Below, piece after piece: positions 551 to 25,216 of a stretch of 26,465 nucleotides of DNA. The stretch is taken from IMG/VR virus record IMGVR_UViG_3300013126_000207, positions 1 through 26,465 of that record; one strand, written 5' to 3'. A program made the translations under genes and the position numbers. Below the pieces are notes generated by a model. That model searched no databases, was not told the origin of the DNA, and saw only the letters and a list, made by a program, of their open reading frames with translations. Numbering within the stretch: the stretch's first letter is position 1; each line of letters starts with the position of its first letter. Origin of the DNA: a virus.

Positions 551-563
551 TATGCGCACCCTA
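551..563 (-). repeat. Conserved intergenic element, copy 1 (TAGGGTGCGCATA)
   Basis: Read on the minus strand, the element starts with the TAG stop codon of the 2231-residue ejection protein and continues GGTGCGCATAGAC, followed by an A/T-rich stretch. It lies about 50 bases before the tail fibre start codon. It is one of five similar copies in the leftward arm (others at 9577, 15378, 18552 and 20655). Promoter, regulator site or module joint are all possible. Confidence 0.6.
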
Positions 564-3500
564 GCGCTTGCTGTCAGGGCTAGCTGCACCACTAATCGTA
601 CCTCGTACAGCATCTAGCGTAGAGGTCGGCTCTATATCCCCTTGCCCCACGCCTGCAAGATAGCCTAGAGGCTTGTTCGCTGCGGTAACTGGTACGCCTG
701 TCAACATCGCAATCAGTGTTAAAGAGTCTTTAATCGCGCGGCTTGCGCTGCCATCATCCGCAATCGCTTTGTATATGCTATGAGGCGCGCGGCCTGCTGA
801 CTCTATCGCACCAATCGCCGGAGCTGAAGCTAAACGATCGTCGTATTGCTGCGGAGTAAATCCCGCCACGATACGAGTTGTTATAGGCCCTGCGATAGGC
901 ACCATGGCTGCGGTCGTGCGTAATGGCGCACCAAAAAAGAAACTAAGAAACTCGTCCAGGTAGCCGTCGTCCTCGTCATCATCCCCTCCACCACGCATCC
1001 CTTGCACGATAGCCTCAGCAACCCATGCGGGAACTAGGAACCCAGCGAACGCGATAAAGGTTAGTTGTCCTGCACCTTTCTTGATCCCGAACTCCTGTGT
1101 CACGTTAGCGACTGACGTGCCTAATACGTTAGCTTGCATATTGAAGTAACTGGCGAACTGCGTAAAGATACGCGCCCATGCGGGGCCAGTCTCATAGCGA
1201 GAAAGGTCTTCCGGTTTGATAGAGCCTTGAGTCTCACGCACTGTGCTATTAGCAAAGCGCACGGCATCTTTTTCGTTTAGGTTTTCTGCAAGTGCCTGGT
1301 TGTATGCGCCTGTCCAAGCAATCACATCGACAAAGTTCTGCGCGGCCTGCTGCATAAAGTAGGCGTGCTTGCTTGTCCAGGCTTTCGCTTCCTCGTACTT
1401 GGTCGGATTGATAAGCATATCCTCGATCTCGCTTCGTAGCTCGAAGCTCTGATCGCCTAGCCTGGTATTCATGAAAGTAGACGAGGCCGCCACGCTTTCG
1501 GCGGTCTGTGTCGGGTTCTTAATGTATTGCACGAACGCAGCTTTCAAGTGCGTAGGTTTGACTTTCAACGCAGCGATACTAAACCCCGTTAATTGTTGCA
1601 GTGTGTTAGTCACGTTAGCGAACATGGTTGCCATGCCTGCGCGTGATCGTGCAGCGCTAAAGAATTTATCCAGGGCCTTGCCTGCTGTACCTGTGCTCGG
1701 TGTCTGTACGATCTGCTTTGCTGCGCGATTAAGCCATGGCAATAGCATATCAGTATAGGCCACCGGATCGTAGCGGGTAAGCTTGCCGCCCATTGCTCGA
1801 AGTGTACGCATAACGTCCCGTACGTGAGTCTCCATGTGAGAGAACAAGAGCACTTTATCTATGTGCTGAGGTAATAGGCGAAGGTCTAAAGCTAGGGGGC
1901 GGTTGTACTCGACGCGAGATTTGGTGAAGCCTCGGCTCGCTGCGGGGAACATGAAAGCGTTACCTGCGTTCACGTCTTCTAGCGCCTGATTGATTACTGC
2001 GTCTTGCACCTCGAATGTATCGGTAAGTGCAGGAATGTACCCGCCACGATAGGTGCCGAAAGGAGTGGTAAAGCTTTCAGCACTGATTTCGTCAAAGTAC
2101 CGCCCGAAGACTTCGCGATGCGTTTTTTGCGCTAGAGGCTTGGTCTCTTCCAGTAGATCCCATACCCCCTGCACAAAGTCAAAGTGTGTTTTCGTCAGCT
2201 TGCCTTCATCTACCATACGAGCGATGAAGCTATCCCACTTGCTAGTATCTAGGCTCTTGTCTTCGCGTTCTACAGCCCACCCACGACCCAGTAGCAACTT
2301 GCGCTTGTTACTTGCGTTGCCTGTGTGGGCTATGGCATGGAGAAGCTCGCTCATGCCTGCGTCGCCTTTTGAATAGCCGAAGGTATAGCCGATCTCAGGC
2401 GCAGCGATGCGCCCAGGACGAAGGGAAGGTTCTACGCTTTTCAGCAAGTCGCGATAGGCGGATAGGTACTTGCGTACATCAATGCGGTATCGGTCTGCGG
2501 CCTCGGATACGGGGGTGAACACGTAGGCTCTAAAGCCGCCGGTTATCTTGCCTCCGTCCATGCGAGACACCCAAGACTCTACACGACGCAAGGCTGCACG
2601 CGCACCGAGCAGGACGCGGATCGCTTTCTCTTTCTCTGTGACTGCATGGCCTTCACCTGGTACTTTGTCCGGCATACCTAAAACATCAAGGCGTGCGCCT
2701 AGAGTTTCTACCACTTGTTCACGATCTACCAGCTTACCGTCAATCTCGACTTGTTTCTCGCGACGAGCCAAGTACCATAAGCTTTCTACTTGGTCGCTAA
2801 GTGCGCGCAGCTCGTCGACTGTTAAGTCTTTCATGTCTTTGGCGTTATCCTGCGCCTGCTGCACGTCCGCTTCGATTGCTGCATAAAGCTCAGGATCATA
2901 GGCTTTCACCGCCTCAAGGTATTTGCGCGGGTTTTGCCCACGGGCACCGATACCAAACTCAGCAAGAATGGCCTTCGTCGCGTTGACTAGATCCAGGTTA
3001 TGCGATCCTTTCAGATTATCAATCTTAGACGCTGCTATTTTTCTAAAGCGTTGTAACAATTTAGTAGCATCTGCTTGTGACTGGTATGCTTCACGGGTCG
3101 TGGCATGTTGTACCAGCTGATTGCGCTTCTGCGTGATCGCCATATCGCGGTCACCTTTGCGCATTGCCTCTTCCGCAAGTTTGCCCGCCTTGGCTGCATC
3201 TCTAGCAAACTTGTTCGGGCGTAAGTCTCTAACTTTAGTTTGTCCTATTTTCTGCTTAGCGTAATCTTTTGCCATGCGTGATAAGGTACGGGCTGAGCCT
3301 AGCGCCTTTTGCAAACCTGCTAGCTCAGTGGCGATTATCTTGGTGCGTACATCGTTATGGATCGCGGCGTCTGCCGCCTTCGCCACGGCTTCAGGTGTTG
3401 CAACTTCGCCATGCTGCTCAAGCATGCGCGTATCGGTAATGGCCTCGATCACATCCTTTATCGGAGGAGCGTCTATCAAGGCGCGTACAAGCTCGTCCCC

Positions 3501-6500
3501 TGAGGCAAAGCCGAACATATCCGCCACTAGATCCGGGTGCATACCGTCCTCGGCTAATGCACCGTATTGCCCATACCCTAGCTTCTGCCAGTTGATAGAG
3601 GGCTTAGCACTAAGCCTTGCGGTAATCTCTGCTGCGGTCAGTGTTTCGGTAGGGTACTCCGGCTTGTTCGGCAGCGACGACCATCTGAAAGTGTCATCTT
3701 TTATTTTCTGTACGCGATAGTTTTCCTTAGCGTTGACTAGCACTTCCCCTGCTAGCACTCTAGTCAGGGCATCTGAGTCGGTATCGTTAGTCGCATACAT
3801 CGCCTTGAGTGCGGGCAATGAGAGCTTAGATCCTTCTATTTTCGAGATTACGCCGTCGTTCTCAGTCTCGCCACGCTTCAGGAAGCGCAAAGCTTTGTAC
3901 ACTGGTTCGTCCTGTACTTCGGCAGCGACTATGGCACGGGTCTCTTTACGCAATGCGTTTGCATCCTTGTTGATGCGCTGCACGGTACGCTCGCGTAATC
4001 GAGACACCCAAGTCATATCCTTGAGGCTCTTAGCTTCCAGTGCTGTGATTGCATCCTGTGCGCTTTGCACCGACTCCCGAGCGTACTCATGGAAGGCTTC
4101 AGGTGTCATGCCTGCCTCTTCCGGTGAGTTGAATAAGAGCGACATATTGCGTGCTTGCCTGGCGTTGTCGATTTGATCTTGTGTTGCGATCATGCGATCG
4201 AACACTGCACGCACTTCAGGGTTAAGCGTTTCCCCCGCATTGGTGAGATAAGACATCATGTTACGGTAGACGTTAGAAAGCCATGCACGGAAGCGCTGGA
4301 ATATAGGTTGTAGTGCCAGGTTAGGCGCTTGACCTTCGAAGAGGTAAGCCTCGAACCCTTCGGCTAGTTTCTCATGGTGTGCGCGTTGTTGCTCGAAGCT
4401 AAGCGCGTGCCATGCGTCTAGCTGCTGCGTGAGTTCGCCTTGCAAACCGAACCAGTTAAAGACGGTTTGCATATCCTCAAGTATTTGGGTTTCTGCTTCA
4501 GTTGCGCCGCGCAGTGCGATCTGCTCTGCGAGTGCGATGTCCATTGCTAGGAATGAATGCCCAAGCTCATGTAAGAACGTCGAAAGGTCGGCGTTCTTGA
4601 GTAGGCTTATGGTGTTAGTGCTAGGAGAAAATCCCCCGCGAGTAGTGCTTAGTCGGGAAGATTCTTGGTTCTGTCTCTGAGGTTCTGCACTGACTCCTCC
4701 GCCATCTTCCGGAATATTTCCTTGAAGTTTGGAATATCCGCTCCGCGTGCCTTTGTAGACGGAGTCTGTGATTTCTCCTGTTTGGTATTGGTTGTCAAGT
4801 TCATTTTGTAACCTTTCAAGTAGATTATTATCCTCCACTATAGGTAAAGTTTCAAGGGGTACTATTTTTTGATTGCCTTTACCTAGCGAATTATCGACGG
4901 CGACAAATTCTACGCGAGGATCTTCACGGTATTTCTCTTGCAGTTTGCGGATAGTAGTAGACACCCCGATATGTGTATCTGCGTGCACTTGCAGCGGTAC
5001 AGTTCTACCCATTCGCATAGCCCTTGGAAGTGCCCCCATTACTAGGGCCTCTACCGGATCGCGATACGTATATTGAATACCTACGCTTCTACCGGAGGCT
5101 AAAGCCTGTTCTATCTTACTTACGGCGGAATCGTACGTATTCATATTTGTATCGTAGATGATGTCTGCGCTGTCAAATAAAGTTTTACCGTCCTCCAAGT
5201 GCAAAGATGTTGATTTACCTGCGCCCGTGCCCCCGGCAGTAAACAAGACGAAAGGTAGTCTTCCCTCTGCTACAGGTTGAGCGAGTTTTGCTTTATAAAG
5301 GTCTTTGATAAATTTACTTGCGGCCTCGTGAACATCGCCTGACCTGGATCTGTCTGCTCGATACTCAGGTGAAAGTTCTCGAGCTTCGTCCGTATTGAGA
5401 ATGCGTCCGCCATCTGTAGTGGATCTGCCTTCGCTGTCTTTTAAATTTGCATACTCATTCGTAGCAGCCGTGAAGTCTGCACTAATTTTATCTGCAAGGG
5501 CTTTGCCTATTCCGTTCTGGTTAAAGCTTTCCCCGGTGACGCTTTGCCCTGTGATCGTTAACGGGTTACGATTGAATAGTTCTGTTGGGGTAATCCCCAT
5601 TGCAGCTGCGCGCACGGCATAGTAACTGCTTGCCAGTGTCGCATAGGTATCGTTAACGCTCGGGCTAGTGTGGCCTGCCTGATTGAGCTGTGTTTTCAGC
5701 AAGCCCTTGACATCATTAGCTGACGCCTTGAAGTTCTCGTCCCCTTGTACCTTGCCGAGGCTTTGCTCTATCTGCTTGTTAAACTCTTCCTGGTACTGCT
5801 GCTGAAACACCTCAGACTCAGCGAACGTCATGCCGTCAGCATCTAGCTTGATGTGGTCGATTAGTTGCTGGTTGAAGTCTGATCCCGCGATCTGCGCTGC
5901 GTACTCGTCAAACGGTATGCGAATACTGCCGCCTGTCTGTAGTGCTTCCTCAAACTGCGTGGCGATAGCAGGCGAGACTTGCGCCAGTTGCTCAGCGACG
6001 CCACTTTGCGCCAAGACCTGAGCATCTACGTACACGTCTTGCACGGGGCCGTCTTCCAAGGCGCTTGCGACGAACTGCCGGAAGGTCTCAGGATCTCGCG
6101 CTTTCACCTGGCTATTTCGGCTTACCTCGTCCAGTTGTTGCAGAGTCTCACGGTGAACGGTTGCCTGCTCTGAGGCAATAACTCTATCCTTATCACGGCT
6201 TGCCAGTTGGTTTGCTACATGTAGACCACTGCCCATGAACAAAGTCGCTAGTGTGGTTTGTACGGCGATGTCAGGAATAGACTTAACGTAATCGCCCCAA
6301 GACACGTTAGGGTTTGCGATTGCGGTATCTACCGCGCCTTGCGCTATCTCTTCCGCAATCTCTGTAGGTACAGCGCGCTTTAAGTACCCTTTAACAAAAC
6401 TGCCTGCGGCCTCTTTGCCGAAGTTCTTAGCCACGAAAGCTAGCGGGTTGATGTCCGCGACCTCGATAGCCGACTGTATGCCAGCATTGGCGAAAGACTC

Positions 6501-7256
6501 TAACGGAGTACCGCCACGCATGCGGGTGTCTGCATAGGTGGTAGGCGCATACTGCGCTGTAGATATACCGACCCCCACTAATGGATTGCGTGTCACTATC
6601 GTGGCAGCGGTGGCGGGTAGCATCTTGCCTACACTATCCAAAGCACCAAAAGCCATGCGTCCTGCGTAGTTGTCTTCTAGGTTAGGGTCTTCGTACTTTG
6701 ATCGAGCAACGGCTCTTTGATATGCGGTCTTTGCGTCTTCCGTGGTGTTCTCCATGTTCATGAAGTTGCCTAAGAAGTCCGCGCCCGCAATGCGCATGCC
6801 TTGTCTTACCATTTCGGGCCATTGCTTTAGTTTGCTACCTAGCGCAATCGCCCAGTTATCCTGTTCCGGCGCCTGCAACCCGTTAGGGTCTTTAAGTTTT
6901 ACTTTGTCATATAAAGGCGGGTTTTGTGGCGGGTGCTGATACTTGGAAATAATTTTCTCGATGTCCGATAAATTCTCGGTGTCATCGTGCGCGATCGCTG
7001 CGAAGCTAGGCTCTTGCATCTGCTTCGCTAGTTTTGGGGAATTTTTTACGAGGTTATCCCAATAGAGTTGGTCTTGCTCTTCTTCTAGCTGCGGCAGGTT
7101 TTCTGCTGCAAGCAGGGCGTCCACTCCGGTAGCGCGGGACAACTTGATACCTTTTGCAGCGGTCTCCGGCTGAAAGGCTTTAGCTGTAGGCAGGGGGTTA
7201 ACTAAAGCTTCAGATCCCCCGTAGATTTCGTTTAGAACTTTAGGGTCGATAGCCAT
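561..7256 (-). CDS. Giant ejection / polyvalent internal virion protein with kinase-like and metallopeptidase-like domains
   Basis: A 2231-residue protein in the place of T7 gp16, the large internal core protein ejected with the DNA. Three regions stand out. Residues about 650-810 hold a P-loop, GGTGAGKS (675-682), followed by RDPVEALVMGALPRAMRMG, resembling zeta-toxin/UDP-sugar kinase folds. Residues 896-900 are HELGH, a zincin zinc-binding motif, with a Glu-rich segment (EGFEAYLFEG, from 966) placed where a third ligand would be. Residues about 2000-2045 (STVRETQGS, FTQFASYFN) resemble the conserved C-terminal domain of large phage polyvalent proteins. A hydrophobic helix lies at about 2065-2085, just before the acidic run GDDDEDD. 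The ATG overlaps the preceding stop by one base (TAATG), so translation is coupled. The virion role is inferred from position and size; the enzyme domains from motifs only. Confidence 0.85.
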   Translation of the reverse strand: MAIDPKVLNEIYGGSEALVNPLPTAKAFQPETAAKGIKLSRATGVDALLAAENLPQLEEEQDQLYWDNLVKNSPKLAKQMQEPSFAAIAHDDTENLSDIEKIISKYQHPPQNPPLYDKVKLKDPNGLQAPEQDNWAIALGSKLKQWPEMVRQGMRIAGADFLGNFMNMENTTEDAKTAYQRAVARSKYEDPNLEDNYAGRMAFGALDSVGKMLPATAATIVTRNPLVGVGISTAQYAPTTYADTRMRGGTPLESFANAGIQSAIEVADINPLAFVAKNFGKEAAGSFVKGYLKRAVPTEIAEEIAQGAVDTAIANPNVSWGDYVKSIPDIAVQTTLATLFMGSGLHVANQLASRDKDRVIASEQATVHRETLQQLDEVSRNSQVKARDPETFRQFVASALEDGPVQDVYVDAQVLAQSGVAEQLAQVSPAIATQFEEALQTGGSIRIPFDEYAAQIAGSDFNQQLIDHIKLDADGMTFAESEVFQQQYQEEFNKQIEQSLGKVQGDENFKASANDVKGLLKTQLNQAGHTSPSVNDTYATLASSYYAVRAAAMGITPTELFNRNPLTITGQSVTGESFNQNGIGKALADKISADFTAATNEYANLKDSEGRSTTDGGRILNTDEARELSPEYRADRSRSGDVHEAASKFIKDLYKAKLAQPVAEGRLPFVLFTAGGTGAGKSTSLHLEDGKTLFDSADIIYDTNMNTYDSAVSKIEQALASGRSVGIQYTYRDPVEALVMGALPRAMRMGRTVPLQVHADTHIGVSTTIRKLQEKYREDPRVEFVAVDNSLGKGNQKIVPLETLPIVEDNNLLERLQNELDNQYQTGEITDSVYKGTRSGYSKLQGNIPEDGGGVSAEPQRQNQESSRLSTTRGGFSPSTNTISLLKNADLSTFLHELGHSFLAMDIALAEQIALRGATEAETQILEDMQTVFNWFGLQGELTQQLDAWHALSFEQQRAHHEKLAEGFEAYLFEGQAPNLALQPIFQRFRAWLSNVYRNMMSYLTNAGETLNPEVRAVFDRMIATQDQIDNARQARNMSLLFNSPEEAGMTPEAFHEYARESVQSAQDAITALEAKSLKDMTWVSRLRERTVQRINKDANALRKETRAIVAAEVQDEPVYKALRFLKRGETENDGVISKIEGSKLSLPALKAMYATNDTDSDALTRVLAGEVLVNAKENYRVQKIKDDTFRWSSLPNKPEYPTETLTAAEITARLSAKPSINWQKLGYGQYGALAEDGMHPDLVADMFGFASGDELVRALIDAPPIKDVIEAITDTRMLEQHGEVATPEAVAKAADAAIHNDVRTKIIATELAGLQKALGSARTLSRMAKDYAKQKIGQTKVRDLRPNKFARDAAKAGKLAEEAMRKGDRDMAITQKRNQLVQHATTREAYQSQADATKLLQRFRKIAASKIDNLKGSHNLDLVNATKAILAEFGIGARGQNPRKYLEAVKAYDPELYAAIEADVQQAQDNAKDMKDLTVDELRALSDQVESLWYLARREKQVEIDGKLVDREQVVETLGARLDVLGMPDKVPGEGHAVTEKEKAIRVLLGARAALRRVESWVSRMDGGKITGGFRAYVFTPVSEAADRYRIDVRKYLSAYRDLLKSVEPSLRPGRIAAPEIGYTFGYSKGDAGMSELLHAIAHTGNASNKRKLLLGRGWAVEREDKSLDTSKWDSFIARMVDEGKLTKTHFDFVQGVWDLLEETKPLAQKTHREVFGRYFDEISAESFTTPFGTYRGGYIPALTDTFEVQDAVINQALEDVNAGNAFMFPAASRGFTKSRVEYNRPLALDLRLLPQHIDKVLLFSHMETHVRDVMRTLRAMGGKLTRYDPVAYTDMLLPWLNRAAKQIVQTPSTGTAGKALDKFFSAARSRAGMATMFANVTNTLQQLTGFSIAALKVKPTHLKAAFVQYIKNPTQTAESVAASSTFMNTRLGDQSFELRSEIEDMLINPTKYEEAKAWTSKHAYFMQQAAQNFVDVIAWTGAYNQALAENLNEKDAVRFANSTVRETQGSIKPEDLSRYETGPAWARIFTQFASYFNMQANVLGTSVANVTQEFGIKKGAGQLTFIAFAGFLVPAWVAEAIVQGMRGGGDDDEDDGYLDEFLSFFFGAPLRTTAAMVPIAGPITTRIVAGFTPQQYDDRLASAPAIGAIESAGRAPHSIYKAIADDGSASRAIKDSLTLIAMLTGVPVTAANKPLGYLAGVGQGDIEPTSTLDAVRGTISGAASPDSKR

Positions 7257-18568: not shown

Positions 18569-20143
18569 CTAGCCGTAAGGGTTGTACTCTCGTCGCGCAT
18601 TGTGCTTAGTGCTTTGGGTTGGGTGAAGGATCTCGCGTGGGGTGAGTGGTGTATCCATGTTTGCTAGCACGTAAGCAGAGCCATAGTCAGGGCTGCGGCC
18701 TAAGCGCTTCACGATGTCTTCTCGGCTTTCGACCTTGATCTTGATGCCTGACATTGACCATTTTGGCGTAGTCAAATCCGCACGTAGTTGTTTGTTTGGG
18801 GGTAGTTGTATGCCTAGGTTGTTAGCTGGGTCTAGCGCCTCGCGCAGCTGCCACCATAGCTGTGTTCTCAGGTTGAAATATTGCAGGTTGCCCGACTTGC
18901 TCGTCGCTGTGGGGGCTTCCGCCACGTTGACGCCGTACACATCAAGCTCTGCCTGCCTAAGGAAGTCGTAAGGGCTAGAGCCGACGCCGATCACGTCCAC
19001 ATGAATGCGCGCCCTATCTCGCATAGCTGCGACTACCGCACCCGCAACGGTAGGGCCGTCAGGGGTTTGCGATCCGGCTAGCTCGATTGGATGATCGAAC
19101 CAGGTGTTATGGCGTCGTGCGATGATGGTCTTGTCCTTACCGCCTCGCGCCACGTCCACGCCCAGGCTATCCATGACTTGAAGCCGTGTGGGTTTAGTCC
19201 ATCGCTCCATGGCCTCGTCTACCCATGCGGTCGGTATCACTTGCCATGGGTCATCCTCGATGCCCGCCTTGAAGTCTCCGTACAGCATTTGACTACGCAA
19301 AGGCTCGGGCATGGCTTGTAATGTCGCCATGTAGCCAGTACCTACGAGGTGCGGGTTATCGGTGATCCGCGAAGGGATGAACGTGCGGCTCATAGGCTTG
19401 ATGATGTCCACGGGCTTGTATTTACTTTGATCGAAGTCGTAAATGCGGTCATCCCCTACAAGCACGAAAGGCTTACCGTCTTCAACCTCGAAGTCTTCCC
19501 CGTTAACTGTCGCGAAATAGCGAAGCTCGCCCGGCTCTGCGGGGTTTGGGTGTTTATCATCCAGCCATGGTGCAAAGAACGAGATTACCCAGCGACCTTC
19601 TGCTGTAGTCGGCGGGTTGAACGTGAGCAATGCCCGGCAGCGTTGGCCTTTTTTCGTGGTTCGCAGCCAGCCAAGTAAAAAGCGCACAGCCTTCTCGCGC
19701 AAGTTCGTTGCTTCATCGAACACTAGCATATCATGCGGGCGCCCTTGGTACTTGGTTTCGTCGCCGGGGTTAGGCACAGAGCCGAACTCGACTTGCCTAT
19801 CTGATAATCGCCAGATCTTTTCCTGCCCGTTAAAGCCGTCGCGCCCACCGAGTAGCTCTGTCATACGGTCGATGATGCCTGCTAACTGGGTAGACTCCTG
19901 CCGTATAATCATGCTGCGATCGTGCTGCGTCGTGGCTAAGCCTACCGCTAGATCGGTCTTACCGCCACCCGCAGCACCGCCATAGCCTACGATGTCGGCT
20001 AAGCTATTGAACGCTGCGGTCTGTGGCCCTGGCAACGGTTCCCATAGAGCCTCAGGGGCGCTTAGCAGTTTGTCTAGTTCGGCTTGCTCTTCGGGGGTTA
20101 GGTACGGCAAAAGCTCCGCAATCTGCGCTTCGGAGTAACTCAT
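18569..20143 (-). CDS. terL: Terminase large subunit
   Basis: A 524-residue DNA-packaging ATPase/nuclease. The Walker A is GGAAGGGKT (residues 55-63) and the Walker B MLVFDE (139-144), with coupling motif LLTFNPP (172-178). The C-terminal RNase H-like nuclease shows Asp330 in DSLGVDVARGGKDK and Asp383 in HVDVIG, with Asp486 a candidate third ligand. The length is usual for the family. Its ATG overlaps the small-subunit stop by four bases (ATGA). It acts with the small subunit and the portal to fill the capsid. Confidence 0.95.
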   Translation of the reverse strand: MSYSEAQIAELLPYLTPEEQAELDKLLSAPEALWEPLPGPQTAAFNSLADIVGYGGAAGGGKTDLAVGLATTQHDRSMIIRQESTQLAGIIDRMTELLGGRDGFNGQEKIWRLSDRQVEFGSVPNPGDETKYQGRPHDMLVFDEATNLREKAVRFLLGWLRTTKKGQRCRALLTFNPPTTAEGRWVISFFAPWLDDKHPNPAEPGELRYFATVNGEDFEVEDGKPFVLVGDDRIYDFDQSKYKPVDIIKPMSRTFIPSRITDNPHLVGTGYMATLQAMPEPLRSQMLYGDFKAGIEDDPWQVIPTAWVDEAMERWTKPTRLQVMDSLGVDVARGGKDKTIIARRHNTWFDHPIELAGSQTPDGPTVAGAVVAAMRDRARIHVDVIGVGSSPYDFLRQAELDVYGVNVAEAPTATSKSGNLQYFNLRTQLWWQLREALDPANNLGIQLPPNKQLRADLTTPKWSMSGIKIKVESREDIVKRLGRSPDYGSAYVLANMDTPLTPREILHPTQSTKHNARREYNPYG

Positions 20144-20625
20144 GCGAGATCGTCGTCTTGCTCTGCTTGAGGTGCAGTAAGTTTGCGCTGCGCAGCTTTC
20201 TCAAGTAATACCGCAATGGCTGAGGCTTTGTGCTCTACCAGGAGAGGCCCTTCGTCTTTGCCTGTCAGCTCTACGGCTTGCTTGTCGCCATATTTTTTAG
20301 GGCTCCATTTCGATAGCAGTTTTAGTCTCGTCTCTATGCGAAGCTTAGCGTGTGCCACGGCGCCTGTATCTGTACCGCCGTTATCTGTGCGCCCTGGTTG
20401 TTCGTCGGCTATGTCGATAGTGTTTTCTGCTATTGCGTCATGTCCTACCTCGCGCGCATACGCGAAGCGTCTATTAAAATCCTCGTCTTTTTCTTTCCAC
20501 AAATACACCGTTTGCCAACTCGGCATGTTTTCATCTCTGCAAATAGCTCTTAGCGTTTCGCCTTCCGCGATACGCGCTACGATTGTGTCTACTATCTCAG
20601 GTGTTTTGATTGTTGGTCTCGCCAT
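20140..20625 (-). CDS. terS: Terminase small subunit
   Basis: A 161-residue protein from ATG 20625 (MARPTIKTPEIVDTIVARIA). A longer frame reaches 20718 only through a TTG and would overlap the preceding gene, so the ATG is preferred. Residues about 5-50 form a helix-turn-helix (ETLRAICRDENMPSWQTVYL) for recognition of the packaging site. The segment AIAENTIDIADEQ and the later WSPKKYGDK are typical of Sf6-type small terminases. The gene overlaps terL by four bases. It begins 30 bases after conserved element copy 5. Confidence 0.87.
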   Translation of the reverse strand: MARPTIKTPEIVDTIVARIAEGETLRAICRDENMPSWQTVYLWKEKDEDFNRRFAYAREVGHDAIAENTIDIADEQPGRTDNGGTDTGAVAHAKLRIETRLKLLSKWSPKKYGDKQAVELTGKDEGPLLVEHKASAIAVLLEKAAQRKLTAPQAEQDDDLA

Positions 20626-20654: not shown

Positions 20655-20668
20655 TATGCGCACCCCTA
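20655..20668 (-). repeat. Conserved intergenic element, copy 5 (TAGGGGTGCGCATA)
   Basis: It begins with the stop codon of the small HTH gene and continues GTTTTTGCGAATTACTGG. The terminase small subunit starts 30 bases later. This is the most upstream copy in the leftward arm, at the entry to the packaging and head genes. Confidence 0.6.
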
Positions 20669-20836
20669 TCGCCTTTTAAAATTGCAAATGTCTCTTGCAC
20701 TGCGCGACGAAATATCAAACTTGCGCGCTAGCTTTTTCCATCCCATACCACTAGCCCGACAATTCCTAAGCAACTCAACTTCGTGATCTGTGAGTTTTGC
20801 TTTCGGATGGTTTTCTCCATGTTTCACGTTTTCCAT
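20666..20836 (-). CDS. Small helix-turn-helix protein (56 residues)
   Basis: The chosen start is ATG 20836 with an AAGGG ribosome site 7 bases upstream; an extension to 20875 would need TTG. The protein, MENVKHGENHPKAKLTDHEV, continues with LLRNCRASGMGWKKLARKFD and ISSRSARDICNFKRR. That is a compact helix-turn-helix like the DNA-binding tails of phage HNH endonucleases, but no HNH nuclease is present. It lies between the iteron array and the terminase genes. It could be a late-gene regulator or an accessory terminase/origin-binding protein. Confidence 0.72.
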   Translation of the reverse strand: MENVKHGENHPKAKLTDHEVELLRNCRASGMGWKKLARKFDISSRSARDICNFKRR

Positions 20837-20867: not shown

Positions 20868-21115
20868 TGCAACACGTACAGTGCAACACACCCCTATATA
20901 CTACGTATATAGAGGGGGCGTGTTGCACAACTATGACTACGCACAAAAAAGATTGCAACACAAGTGCAACACACGTGTTGCAGTACATACACCGCATAAA
21001 ATAAGGCTTTCAGCCAAAGTGCAACACAAGTGCAACACGGATTAACAAAGCCGTGTTGCAGTTTTAAAAGTAAGTGCAACACGGGTGCAACACGGTTTTT
21101 AATATCCGTGTTGCA
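20868..21115. repeat. Iteron-like array: 12 copies of TGCAACAC, a candidate replication origin
   Basis: Eight direct copies of TGCAACAC start at 20868, 20882, 20954, 20965, 21020, 21031, 21075 and 21086. Four inverted copies (GTGTTGCA) start at 20920, 20975, 21053 and 21108. The pattern is four groups of two direct copies and one inverted. The last six direct copies are spaced 11, 55, 11, 44 and 11 bases, all multiples of 11, so they face one side of the helix. The stretch 20837-21201 has no convincing gene. It lies directly after a primase/helicase gene, the expected place for an initiator-bound origin. A multi-site operator is the alternative. Confidence 0.75.
20881..20928. repeat. 48-base interrupted palindrome inside the array
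   Basis: GTGCAACAC at the left end pairs perfectly with GTGTTGCAC at the right end. Inside are CCCC with GGGG and TATATAC with GTATATA, separated by a TAC loop and small bulges. A cruciform or RNA hairpin is possible. The A/T-rich centre is a candidate DNA-unwinding site or a transcription stop between the replication and packaging genes. Confidence 0.6.
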
Positions 21116-21201
21116 CGTAATAAAATGCGAGTTGGTATCTTTCCGCGAGATTAGCCCACAAAATACCCGTAATAAATTGCAACTTGTAATTTTTAACATG
21201 C

Positions 21202-23169
21202 TCATAGTAATGTCACCGTGTCGTCGTCTTCGAGGATAAAAAACGACCCATCCTCTGAAAGTTTGGTAAAAGCGCGTTTTAAAACTTGTGCACGGGTATC
21301 TCTACCTTCAGGTTTTGGCATCATACTTACCGCTATTTCGATTACCGCCTTTTGCTCTATGCCTGCGGTTTGAGACAGCCCAATCTCGGATAGAGCGTTA
21401 AGAATGGTCTGCTCGTTCTTTCCGATAGGTTTATCACTACCTAAAGGCATTTCAGCCTCAGAGCAGATACAAGTAGTAATAGGATCTCCGTCCTCGTCTT
21501 CTCCAATGGTTACAGGCTCCAAGGCAAACCCCCACTCCTTAAAGTCTGCGCCGTCCTTTTGCTTAGTGGTACGGATGTAACGCCCCATAGGAGTACGTAC
21601 GACTTCCAATTCTGCGTCAGCGGCGGCTCGTAAGCCTGACCACCCGCGAGCGCCTTTGCTTGAGTCCTTGCCGGAGTGGTGGACGAGCAACACTAGAGCA
21701 CCCGTTGCTTTGTGAATGCCTTTACAATGGGCCAAGGCCTTACCCATATCGTCTGAAGCATTCTCGTTCGCGCCTGCTAGGGTTTGAGCGAAGGTGTCCA
21801 CAATGATTAGCGAAGGTTTATCGCCACTAGCGAGGATGGATTTAGCAATGTCGATAGCATCCTCTTTGAGTAACAGATTAGGTGCAGCATCTATGATGTC
21901 TAAAGGTACAGAAGACAGATCTATCCCGGATACCGTAGCTAAAGCGATAAGACGATTACGAAAACCCGCAGCACCTTCTGCTACAAGGTAGACGACACGG
22001 CCTTGCGTGGTGCGCAAGCCTCGCCAGCGAAGGCCACGAGCGATAGCGAACGCCATATCCAAAGCGACGAACGATTTACCGGAGCCGGACTCCCCAAAGA
22101 GCACGGCAAGGGCTGCTTGAGGCAGTAGGCCCTTGATGATGTACGACCATGTCGCGCGTACTGCGAAGTTTGAAGCAGGAATACAAGGGAAGCGCATAGC
22201 GTGCTGGACTGTTACCGGTGTATTCGTCTCTAGGTTGTCGAACTCTTCGAGATTAGTCACGTTAAGATTGATATGTGCGCCATTCTGATTAGCGAGTTGC
22301 ACTAGCGTACGGGCCGTGATGATCTTGGCGTTGCCTTTGCCGAAACTATCCCAGCGCGCAAGCAAGGCCTCTTCCCCTGGGTATTTCTCAGAGGCCGACG
22401 ACCAGGTATTCCACAATGCGAAGCCCTGCCCGTTCGTCTCGTGGTGTAGAGCCATACCGATAGATAACCAGGTGTTGTGATCCGTGGATGGATCGAGTAC
22501 GTCCAACGCTTCGCGCACGATCTCGAGCGACAAGCCTAAAGGTTGCTTGGCCTGCGCGTTGTCCTCTTCCGATATGCCTTCCCCAAAGCGAGAGCGCAGT
22601 AGCGCGGTCAGTCGAGTGTCCGGGGCCGCGATAGTGTTAGTCGCCTCGGTCAGTTCGGTGATCTCCAAGGCATTGCCCGTGAAAGTGACGAAGCCCTTAG
22701 TAGCGAAGCCCTCGACACCGAACTGCGTTGCTGAGGCGTGGGACTTCTGATTGCCTGCGACATTGCCCAGAACGAAGACGTGAACGCCTTCGCCTGACGG
22801 AGAGTATTCCGCATAAGTGCCCACGCCAAAGCCTTCGATGTCTTGGTGAAGCCTGCCATTGACCATGCACTTGTCAAAGTCAAGTACCGAGAAGTCGCCA
22901 TCAAGCGTGGCTAGCCCGATACCGTCCATATTCTTGCGCGCAGCTGCCGAGCGAGCAGCATCGAACGTGACGAGCTGCTGCCTGTCCTCAGGGCGGCCTT
23001 GCACACCGTAGCGCTTTGCGCCATTTGCATAGTAAGGCACCTTACGCGGTTTGGCTTCTCCATCCATGTGCTCGAAGCGCCACATGAGCCAGATTGGACG
23101 TGATGCGATTAGTTCAGGGGCTTGAATAGTGCTTAGATGGGGGTTTATTTTAGTCACGGCGGCACTCAT
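21202..23169 (-). CDS. Primase-polymerase/RepA-like replicative helicase
   Basis: The start is ATG 23169 (MSAAVTKINPHLSTIQAPEL), giving 655 residues; a TTG at 23199 has no ribosome site, and the ATG overlaps the small membrane gene's stop (ATGA). Counted from the TTG (add 10 to ATG numbering), residues about 30-200 are a primase-polymerase domain with Asp107/Asp109 in SVLDFDK and SPSGEGVHVFV (133-143). Residues about 225-300 are a PriCT-2-like linker (DPSTDHNTWLSIGMALHHE). Residues about 345-570 are a RepA/RecA-type ATPase with Walker A GESGSGKS (369-376), Walker B LIIVDTF (464-470) and LVLLVHHSGK (502-511). It would prime and unwind phage DNA. The adjoining repeat array is the likely origin. 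Confidence 0.9.
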   Translation of the reverse strand: MSAAVTKINPHLSTIQAPELIASRPIWLMWRFEHMDGEAKPRKVPYYANGAKRYGVQGRPEDRQQLVTFDAARSAAARKNMDGIGLATLDGDFSVLDFDKCMVNGRLHQDIEGFGVGTYAEYSPSGEGVHVFVLGNVAGNQKSHASATQFGVEGFATKGFVTFTGNALEITELTEATNTIAAPDTRLTALLRSRFGEGISEEDNAQAKQPLGLSLEIVREALDVLDPSTDHNTWLSIGMALHHETNGQGFALWNTWSSASEKYPGEEALLARWDSFGKGNAKIITARTLVQLANQNGAHINLNVTNLEEFDNLETNTPVTVQHAMRFPCIPASNFAVRATWSYIIKGLLPQAALAVLFGESGSGKSFVALDMAFAIARGLRWRGLRTTQGRVVYLVAEGAAGFRNRLIALATVSGIDLSSVPLDIIDAAPNLLLKEDAIDIAKSILASGDKPSLIIVDTFAQTLAGANENASDDMGKALAHCKGIHKATGALVLLVHHSGKDSSKGARGWSGLRAAADAELEVVRTPMGRYIRTTKQKDGADFKEWGFALEPVTIGEDEDGDPITTCICSEAEMPLGSDKPIGKNEQTILNALSEIGLSQTAGIEQKAVIEIAVSMMPKPEGRDTRAQVLKRAFTKLSEDGSFFILEDDDTVTLL

Positions 23170-23282
23170 AGCTTGCACCAATGGATGACCCAGGGCCAAA
23201 GCACTAAAGCGCCTAGCAAAAGCAAAGCAAACACAACAAGGATAATCAATACTTCTATTTTTTCATCGCGGGATAGCTTCAT
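23166..23282 (-). CDS. 38-residue single-pass membrane peptide
   Basis: ATG 23282 overlaps the previous gene's stop by four bases, and its own TGA overlaps the primase ATG by four bases (ATGA on both sides). The peptide has a charged start (MKLSRDEKIE), a hydrophobic run of about 20 residues (11-31, VLIILVVFALLLLGALVLW) and a short WPWVIHW tail. Exact coupling on both sides argues that it is translated. Its function is unknown; membrane anchoring of replication or a small exclusion/toxin-like role are guesses. Confidence 0.72.
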   Translation of the reverse strand: MKLSRDEKIEVLIILVVFALLLLGALVLWPWVIHWCKL

Positions 23283-23953: not shown

Positions 23954-23984
23954 AGTTGATTATTGCCTGAGTAAAAGATGAACC

Positions 23985-24013
23985 ATTCTACAAAACAATT
24001 TGTAATTAAACAA
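23985..24013 (-). promoter_or_regulatory. Leftward early promoter with operator in the spacer
   Basis: On the minus strand, -35 TTGTTT (24013-24008) and -10 TAGAAT (23990-23985) are separated by exactly 17 bases. That spacer is filled by the operator ATTACAAATTGTTTTG(TAG). It drives the Cro-like gene, whose start lies about 30 bases further on. Repressor binding would cover both boxes. Confidence 0.7.
23988..24005. promoter_or_regulatory. Operator 1, probable CI binding site (CTACAAAACAATTTGTAA)
   Basis: It lies between the divergent repressor and Cro-like genes. Its reverse complement differs by one terminal base from the operator at 25196-25213. Half-site TTACAAA, dyad symmetric. A shorter TTGTACAA dyad nearby (24023-24030) could be a weaker second site. 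Confidence 0.7.
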
Positions 24014-24055
24014 CAAAAACTCTTGTACAAATAGAAAATAGGGATTTGGTACGAT

Positions 24056-25124: not shown

Positions 25125-25161
25125 CCTGTAAAAACAAGGCACTACAAAATTTCGTCTTAAA

Positions 25162-25179
25162 TTACAAATTATTTTGTAA
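25162..25179. promoter_or_regulatory. Operator 2 (TTACAAATTATTTTGTAA)
   Basis: It differs by one base from operator 3, starts 34 bases upstream of it and lies just before the -35 box of the right-hand promoter. Paired sites about three helical turns apart suit cooperative repressor binding. Confidence 0.7.
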
Positions 25180-25186
25180 AAAGTGC

Positions 25187-25216
25187 TTGACGTGATTACA
25201 AATTGTTTTGTAAACT
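25187..25216 (+). promoter_or_regulatory. Right-hand operon promoter containing operator 3
   Basis: -35 TTGACG (25187-25192) and -10 TAAACT (25211-25216) have an 18-base spacer. Operator 3, TTACAAATTGTTTTGTAA, spans 25196-25213, covering the spacer and half the -10. The arrangement copies the leftward early promoter. It leads into the LPD29-like gene after a 42-base leader. Confidence 0.72.

Follow-up and report, generated by a model that had tools for sequence, protein, structure and literature searches.

The window, by which we mean the whole stretch of DNA analysed, is a full IMG/VR record of 26,465 bases (26.5 kb) and a fragment of a temperate podovirus. The phage is BPP-1/epsilon15-like: TerS, TerL, portal and major head and tail proteins are encoded, the portal and head-tail gene order are homologous, and the portal is 54-58% identical to those of BPP-1, Limnohabitans phage DC33 and relatives. 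On the minus strand, an operon runs in the order YdaS, an RHH-like protein of 69 aa, a 72-aa protein, the primase-helicase (23199-21202), a repeat array, a 56-aa HTH protein, TerS, TerL and structural genes. The HTH protein (20666-20836, minus strand; bbp27 in BPP-1) lies between the array and the terminase in close relatives. It carries an HPxAKLTD motif and is kept in that place in BPP-1-like phages. The Sf6-like terminase small subunit (20140-20625, minus strand) is the next gene past the array and the HTH protein. One gene for a 2231-aa virion-type protein, situated in the tail end of the late operon, fills 561-7256 on the minus strand, and relatives have even larger genes at the homologous position, up to 9.6 kb in L019. 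A Cro/CI-type switch with YdaS-like and S24 repressors lies at about 23.95-24.06 kb; TTGTAAT/ACAAAAC-like repeated sites at 23970-24030 and 25150-25215 flank the CI-type repressor gene and are likely its operators.

The first-pass annotation had raised extrachromosomal (phage-plasmid) maintenance. This is not supported, since the closest relative (L025) has a tyrosine integrase, a ParA-type AAA_31 protein is found in 0 of 25 relatives, and the record is a fragment. An integrase is present in 7 of the 25 relatives, including the nearest, and a serine recombinase in 1. Neither a tyrosine nor a serine recombinase is present in 17 of them, mostly of 38-48 kb (G003-G006, G008-G013, G015-G018, G020, G022, G025).

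The array consists of 12 exact copies of TGCAACAC at 20868-21115, arranged direct-direct-inverted four times over. The first pass had described it so, and this is confirmed. Shuffles of the whole window give a mean of 0.93 copies and a maximum of 5; only 2 further copies lie elsewhere in the 26.5 kb. Group 1 (20868-20927) has sites at 20868(+), 20882(+) and 20920(-). Group 2 (20954-20982) has sites at 20954(+), 20965(+) and 20975(-), the last two of which form a perfect 18-bp palindrome, TGCAACACACGTGTTGCA. Group 3 (21020-21060; sites at 21020(+), 21031(+) and 21053(-)) and group 4 (21075-21115; 21075(+), 21086(+) and 21108(-)) are 82% identical across 44 nt. The multiples of 11 bases noted earlier hold for the six direct copies from 20954 to 21086, with gaps of 11, 55, 11, 44 and 11 bp, but not for the first pair, which is 14 bp apart. 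Helical phasing at 11 bp is also not a conserved feature, since direct spacings in the relatives peak at 8-10 bp (90 arrays); it is peculiar to the window's copy of the array. The 48-base palindrome reported within group 1 (20881-20928) does have an A/T-rich centre, but it is imperfect, with 32 of 48 positions symmetric and outer arms of 14 nt that are 93% symmetric; we found no evidence of a special role for it. The array starts 86 bp past the stop codon of the primase-helicase. The A/T-rich stretch between the two (21116-21201; best 30 bp 83% A/T) is a candidate unwinding region, and a partial site recognized by sequence, TGCAACTT, with the core TGCAAC, is found at 21178-21185 on the plus strand.

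The gene bordering the array had been called a RepA-like primase/helicase, and Pfam, an AlphaFold model and PDB matches bear this out. Its product (665 aa from a TTG start; 21202-23199, minus strand) comprises a primase domain (about aa 25-190), PriCT_2 (228-303), an AAA_25/RepA-type ATPase (352-513; Pfam E 4e-36) and a C-terminal winged helix (about 590-665). The ATPase matches RSF1010 RepA (1g8y) both by sequence (E 3e-10) and in Foldseek. The primase domain matches PDB 7ola/7om0 (E 2e-29), an entry that we take to be the SaPI5 primase-helicase, and also the primase-polymerase of phage NrS-1. The winged helix (aa 590-665; 21205-21432, minus strand), which we propose as the iteron-binding domain, is modelled with confidence (mean pLDDT 85.5) and is preceded by a low-confidence linker. 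Foldseek gave only weak matches of this domain to winged-helix structures, as expected of a small common fold. The recognition helix comprises aa 636-650 (RAQVLKRAFTKLSED; 21250-21294, minus strand), and residue 639, a Val in the window (codon 21283-21285), sits early in the modelled helix.

Arrays behind the helicase in related phages

We fetched relatives by helicase alignment (80 viral and 80 bacterial-genome loci) and tested 169 loci for a 7-mer repeated more often than in dinucleotide shuffles (p <= 0.02), within an 820-bp stretch that spans the helicase stop and runs on past it. Of the 169, 114 (67%) have a significant array immediately behind the helicase, with a median start 27 bp after the stop codon. 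With the same test, arrays were called in 8 of 169 control regions elsewhere in the loci (about 5%) and in 3 of 67 regions upstream of the helicase. The test was negative in 55 of the 169 relatives, including Caulobacter phage GB2A (42% identical). The repeats vary among relatives: besides TGCAACAC there are TGCACCAC, TGAAGGGT, AGTAGGGT, TGAAGCA, GCCACAC, CGGGACA, CCGGACA, CGTCACA and others. The A/T-richest stretch lies inside the array in 20 of 88 relatives; in the window, the A/T-richest 30 bp precedes it.

A pattern scan reached a distant relative (L014) in which an AAA_25 helicase, a TGCAACAC array, an HTH protein and the terminase follow in the same order as in the window. On a 9.6-kb viral contig (L015:4129-4451), 13 TGCAACAC sites lie between the terminase side and the plus-strand early side; no recognisable primase-helicase was found on this fragment, so that the helicase may lie beyond the fragment's ends, or else the array is separable from its gene. 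Three pattern hits (L016, L017 and L018) were set aside because they look like other uses of a similar string. In two of these (L017:3823-4086 and L018:4222-4485), GTGCAACA-type repeats lie on both sides of a likely attachment site, beside a tyrosine integrase. They resemble integrase arm sites, with chance or convergence accounting for the common string.

Arrays also follow other classes of helicase. Among VapE-like helicases (from L003), they are present in 71 of 73 distinct loci. Where two near-identical helicases have different iterons, nearly all their differences fall within the last ~40 residues: the final blocks have 69% and 20% identity in such pairs versus 94% and 86% in pairs sharing an iteron, and the most informative columns fall in the final hairpin, GKxxR. 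In L203-L282, where the helicase cores are 94-100% identical in most blocks, the last 40 codons and the downstream array make up a hypervariable cassette, its two parts switching together among phages. Joint exchange of the adjoining tail and array could contribute in the VapE family. D5-type helicases related to BPP-1 bbp29 have smaller arrays, in 36 of 63 loci, many of them closely related to each other. In BPP-1 itself, four AAACGAGGCAA copies, two direct and two inverted, lie between bbp28 and bbp27 (L020:15760-15900); this set gives p 0.04 alone, and the arrays of its relatives are clearer.

Recognition helix and repeat core

The iteron core follows the recognition helix of the neighbouring helicase. 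With C-termini aligned by motif, Gln then His in the helix RDTRxQ-x goes with TGCAC, and TGCAA accompanies Gln, Leu or Met followed by Arg, Val, Lys, Leu, Met or Gln. Ser-Asn is paired with TGAAG, even in such dissimilar members as L049 and L108; Glu goes with TGCC in unrelated members, and Glu-His (L107) with TGCCCC. The presence of His639 or of another residue matches TGCAC or TGCAA in 37 of 38 non-redundant helicases (Fisher 2e-8), against 7e-4 for the next best among 1201 residue tests; one exception, L106, has a weak array. We chose presence/absence tests since plain mutual information ranked poorly, owing to high-entropy columns, and placed residue 208 about level with residue 639. One label, that of L025, was changed from TGCAA to TGCAC: TGCA is its own complement and had misled the automatic labelling, and TGCAC is what the consensus AAAGTGCA gives when its opposite strand is read. 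If the first label is kept, the rule holds for 36 of 38 helicases (p 6e-7).

On a helicase tree from which the C-terminal domain was left out, the core must have changed 11 times or more, and the changes are not clustered, so that common descent alone does not explain the match between residue and core. Independent pairs on well-supported branches agree in 5 of 6 cases and oppose in none (p 0.06), too few for significance alone. Similarity of motifs also follows similarity of the C-terminal domain once the ATPase core is accounted for (partial Mantel 0.26; 0 of 500 permutations). For an out-of-sample set, two further scans provided 71 new distinct loci, 31 of them with a Gln-type helix, and we required at least 5 core copies. 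The predicted core was right in 25 of 26 loci (TGCAA 18 of 19, TGCAC 7 of 7). The single miss was a matter of 8 versus 9 copies, and TGCAC counts are inflated where G precedes TGCAAC. A new Glu-type locus (L447) has five TGCCAC sites, as the rule predicts; a new Ser-His locus (L484) showed no clear array. Taken together, the covariation and the out-of-sample prediction indicate that the choice of iteron lies with the DNA-binding domain at the C-terminus of the helicase, and binding of the iterons by this winged helix is strongly implied.

The same analysis bears on two other readings of the array. Because the gene for the 56-aa HTH protein directly adjoins it, and is kept there in close relatives including BPP-1, the array might be the binding site of that protein, or of another small regulator, controlling late transcription of the terminase-capsid operon. 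We regard this as very improbable. The first-pass annotation had listed the HTH protein among the possible binders, yet the repeat is not tracked by any of its columns: over the same 31 loci, the best gives p 1.3e-3 against 1.1e-6 for His639. Of the 85 loci that have an array and over 3.5 kb of downstream sequence, 36 lack both the HTH protein and the terminase. Many of these 36 belong to more distant helicases, and in several (L109, L055, L107) the helicase rule is still obeyed. Since the array lies just upstream of the terminase genes in the window's phage group, it might instead serve as a packaging site (pac/cos) to which the terminase small subunit binds, a reading to which we give hardly any credence. 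In TerS and TerL, no column follows the core (best p 1e-3 to 1e-2 across the HTH protein, TerS and TerL), as against 1e-6, 4e-5 and 7e-8 for His639 on the respective locus sets; arrays remain where no terminase genes are nearby, and they are also found behind helicases of unrelated classes, where the gene order differs.

The array as a probable origin

By sequence comparison, the array's position is conserved, its repeats are diverse, and their core covaries with the recognition helix. The twelve-repeat cluster is very probably the phage's replication origin, and the origin reading of the first pass is supported as the most likely one. That reading had left the initiator unidentified. An initiator that reads the array still fits, but a separate protein is not required: the repeat core covaries with the recognition helix of the helicase, and the initiator is therefore most probably the neighbouring primase-helicase, through its C-terminal winged helix. 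As a whole, the proposal that the array is a replication origin and that its initiator is the primase-helicase encoded immediately upstream on the minus strand seems to us highly likely.

We suggest a plausible course of initiation. The C-terminal winged helix, tethered to the ATPase by a flexible linker, would bind the 8-bp iterons; such a linker fits the variable 8-12 bp pitch of the direct sites. Many bound copies would concentrate subunits and assemble a hexameric RepA-type ring on the origin, and two rings would be possible given the direct and inverted sites. The adjacent A/T-rich DNA would then open, the ring would load, and the fused primase domain may make the first primers. Ring loading, melting and firing are here inferred from SaPI Rep, Cch2, P4 alpha and pRN1 (PMC7581432, PMC6092414, PMC4234260). 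In 5 of 6 relatives, GC skew changes at a point 1-3 kb beyond the array, which is also where early genes give way to late ones; the sign of the change is the reverse of what a leading-strand G excess would give.

The binding that we deduce for this family does not by itself show firing, and P4 has a second alpha-binding region (crr) besides its ori (mentioned in PMC6092414). Binding of the array by the winged helix might thus serve chiefly to repress replication or keep count of it, in handling or incompatibility control, with initiation elsewhere. We consider this improbable, since only one array is seen within the window and regions with this layout in SaPI/PICI elements do function as origins (PMC6092414, PMC7581432).

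Extending the origin-initiator proposal beyond the RepA type, we lean towards the idea that one logic is common to the fused primase-helicases of temperate tailed phages across three or more unrelated ATPase classes (RepA-type, VapE-like and D5-type). The iteron array would follow the gene directly and be read, via a residue-to-base code, by a C-terminal DNA-binding domain that evolves fast. If this is true, origins in a large share of temperate phages would be predictable from protein sequence, and constant change of the code may prevent phages and satellites resident in one host from setting off replication at one another's origins.

Relation to known replicons

For most temperate phages, the replication origin has yet to be mapped. 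In this case a probable origin and its probable reader are named together and predictably so, with one helix residue foretelling the repeat core in new loci (25 of 26). We found no prior description of this arrangement within the open-access literature. The natural initiator-iteron pairs would also be of use in working out a winged-helix recognition code and in building orthogonal replicons.

RSF1010 RepA has a homologous RepA-type RecA-like ATPase domain. However, a separate protein, RepC, reads the iterons of RSF1010, whereas our proposed reader is fused to the helicase; no RepC match was found by Pfam or PHROGs among ten neighbouring proteins on this fragment record. P4 alpha, like the window's protein, is a multifunctional primase-helicase with a C-terminal winged helix, which in P4 binds the origin repeats (as summarised in PMC4234260). 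It differs in combining a Toprim-type primase with an SF3-type helicase, in place of an archaeo-eukaryotic-type primase with a RepA-type ATPase. The pRN1 ORF904 and BIP-1/BPP-1 replication proteins share with the window a prim-pol, a helicase, a C-terminal winged helix and, just downstream of the gene, an origin (a probable one in the window), and BPP-1 is a close structural-gene relative of the window phage. For the BIP-1/BPP-1 type, a stem-loop origin was proposed with the binding motifs left unidentified, and no origin iterons were reported for BIP-1, which is nearly identical to BPP-1 (PMC4234260). In contrast with that proposal, relatives of the BPP-1 helicase carry arrays of 4-5 copies (36 of 63), which offer candidate sequence motifs for this type.

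A similar layout is that of the SaPI/PICI rep-ori systems (SaPI Rep, Cch2 of SCCmec, EcCICFT073), in which short iterons likewise lie immediately 3' of the initiator-helicase gene. The C-terminal domain of SaPI Rep and Cch2 binds iterons downstream of its own gene (PMC7581432), and a primase is sometimes fused to the initiator helicase (PMC7581432, PMC6092414). The ATPase of these systems is DUF927 or D5, whereas that of the window is RepA/RecA-like AAA_25. In the PICI origins an A/T-rich region stands between two sets of iterons; the window has no such two-set layout, which is not general in its relatives either. Finally, the host element there is a satellite, while here it is a tailed phage with its own capsid and portal genes. 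A survey called the iteron/helicase layout unique to phage-inducible islands (PMC6092414); our comparison extends it to tailed phages, which bears on where satellites got their replicons.
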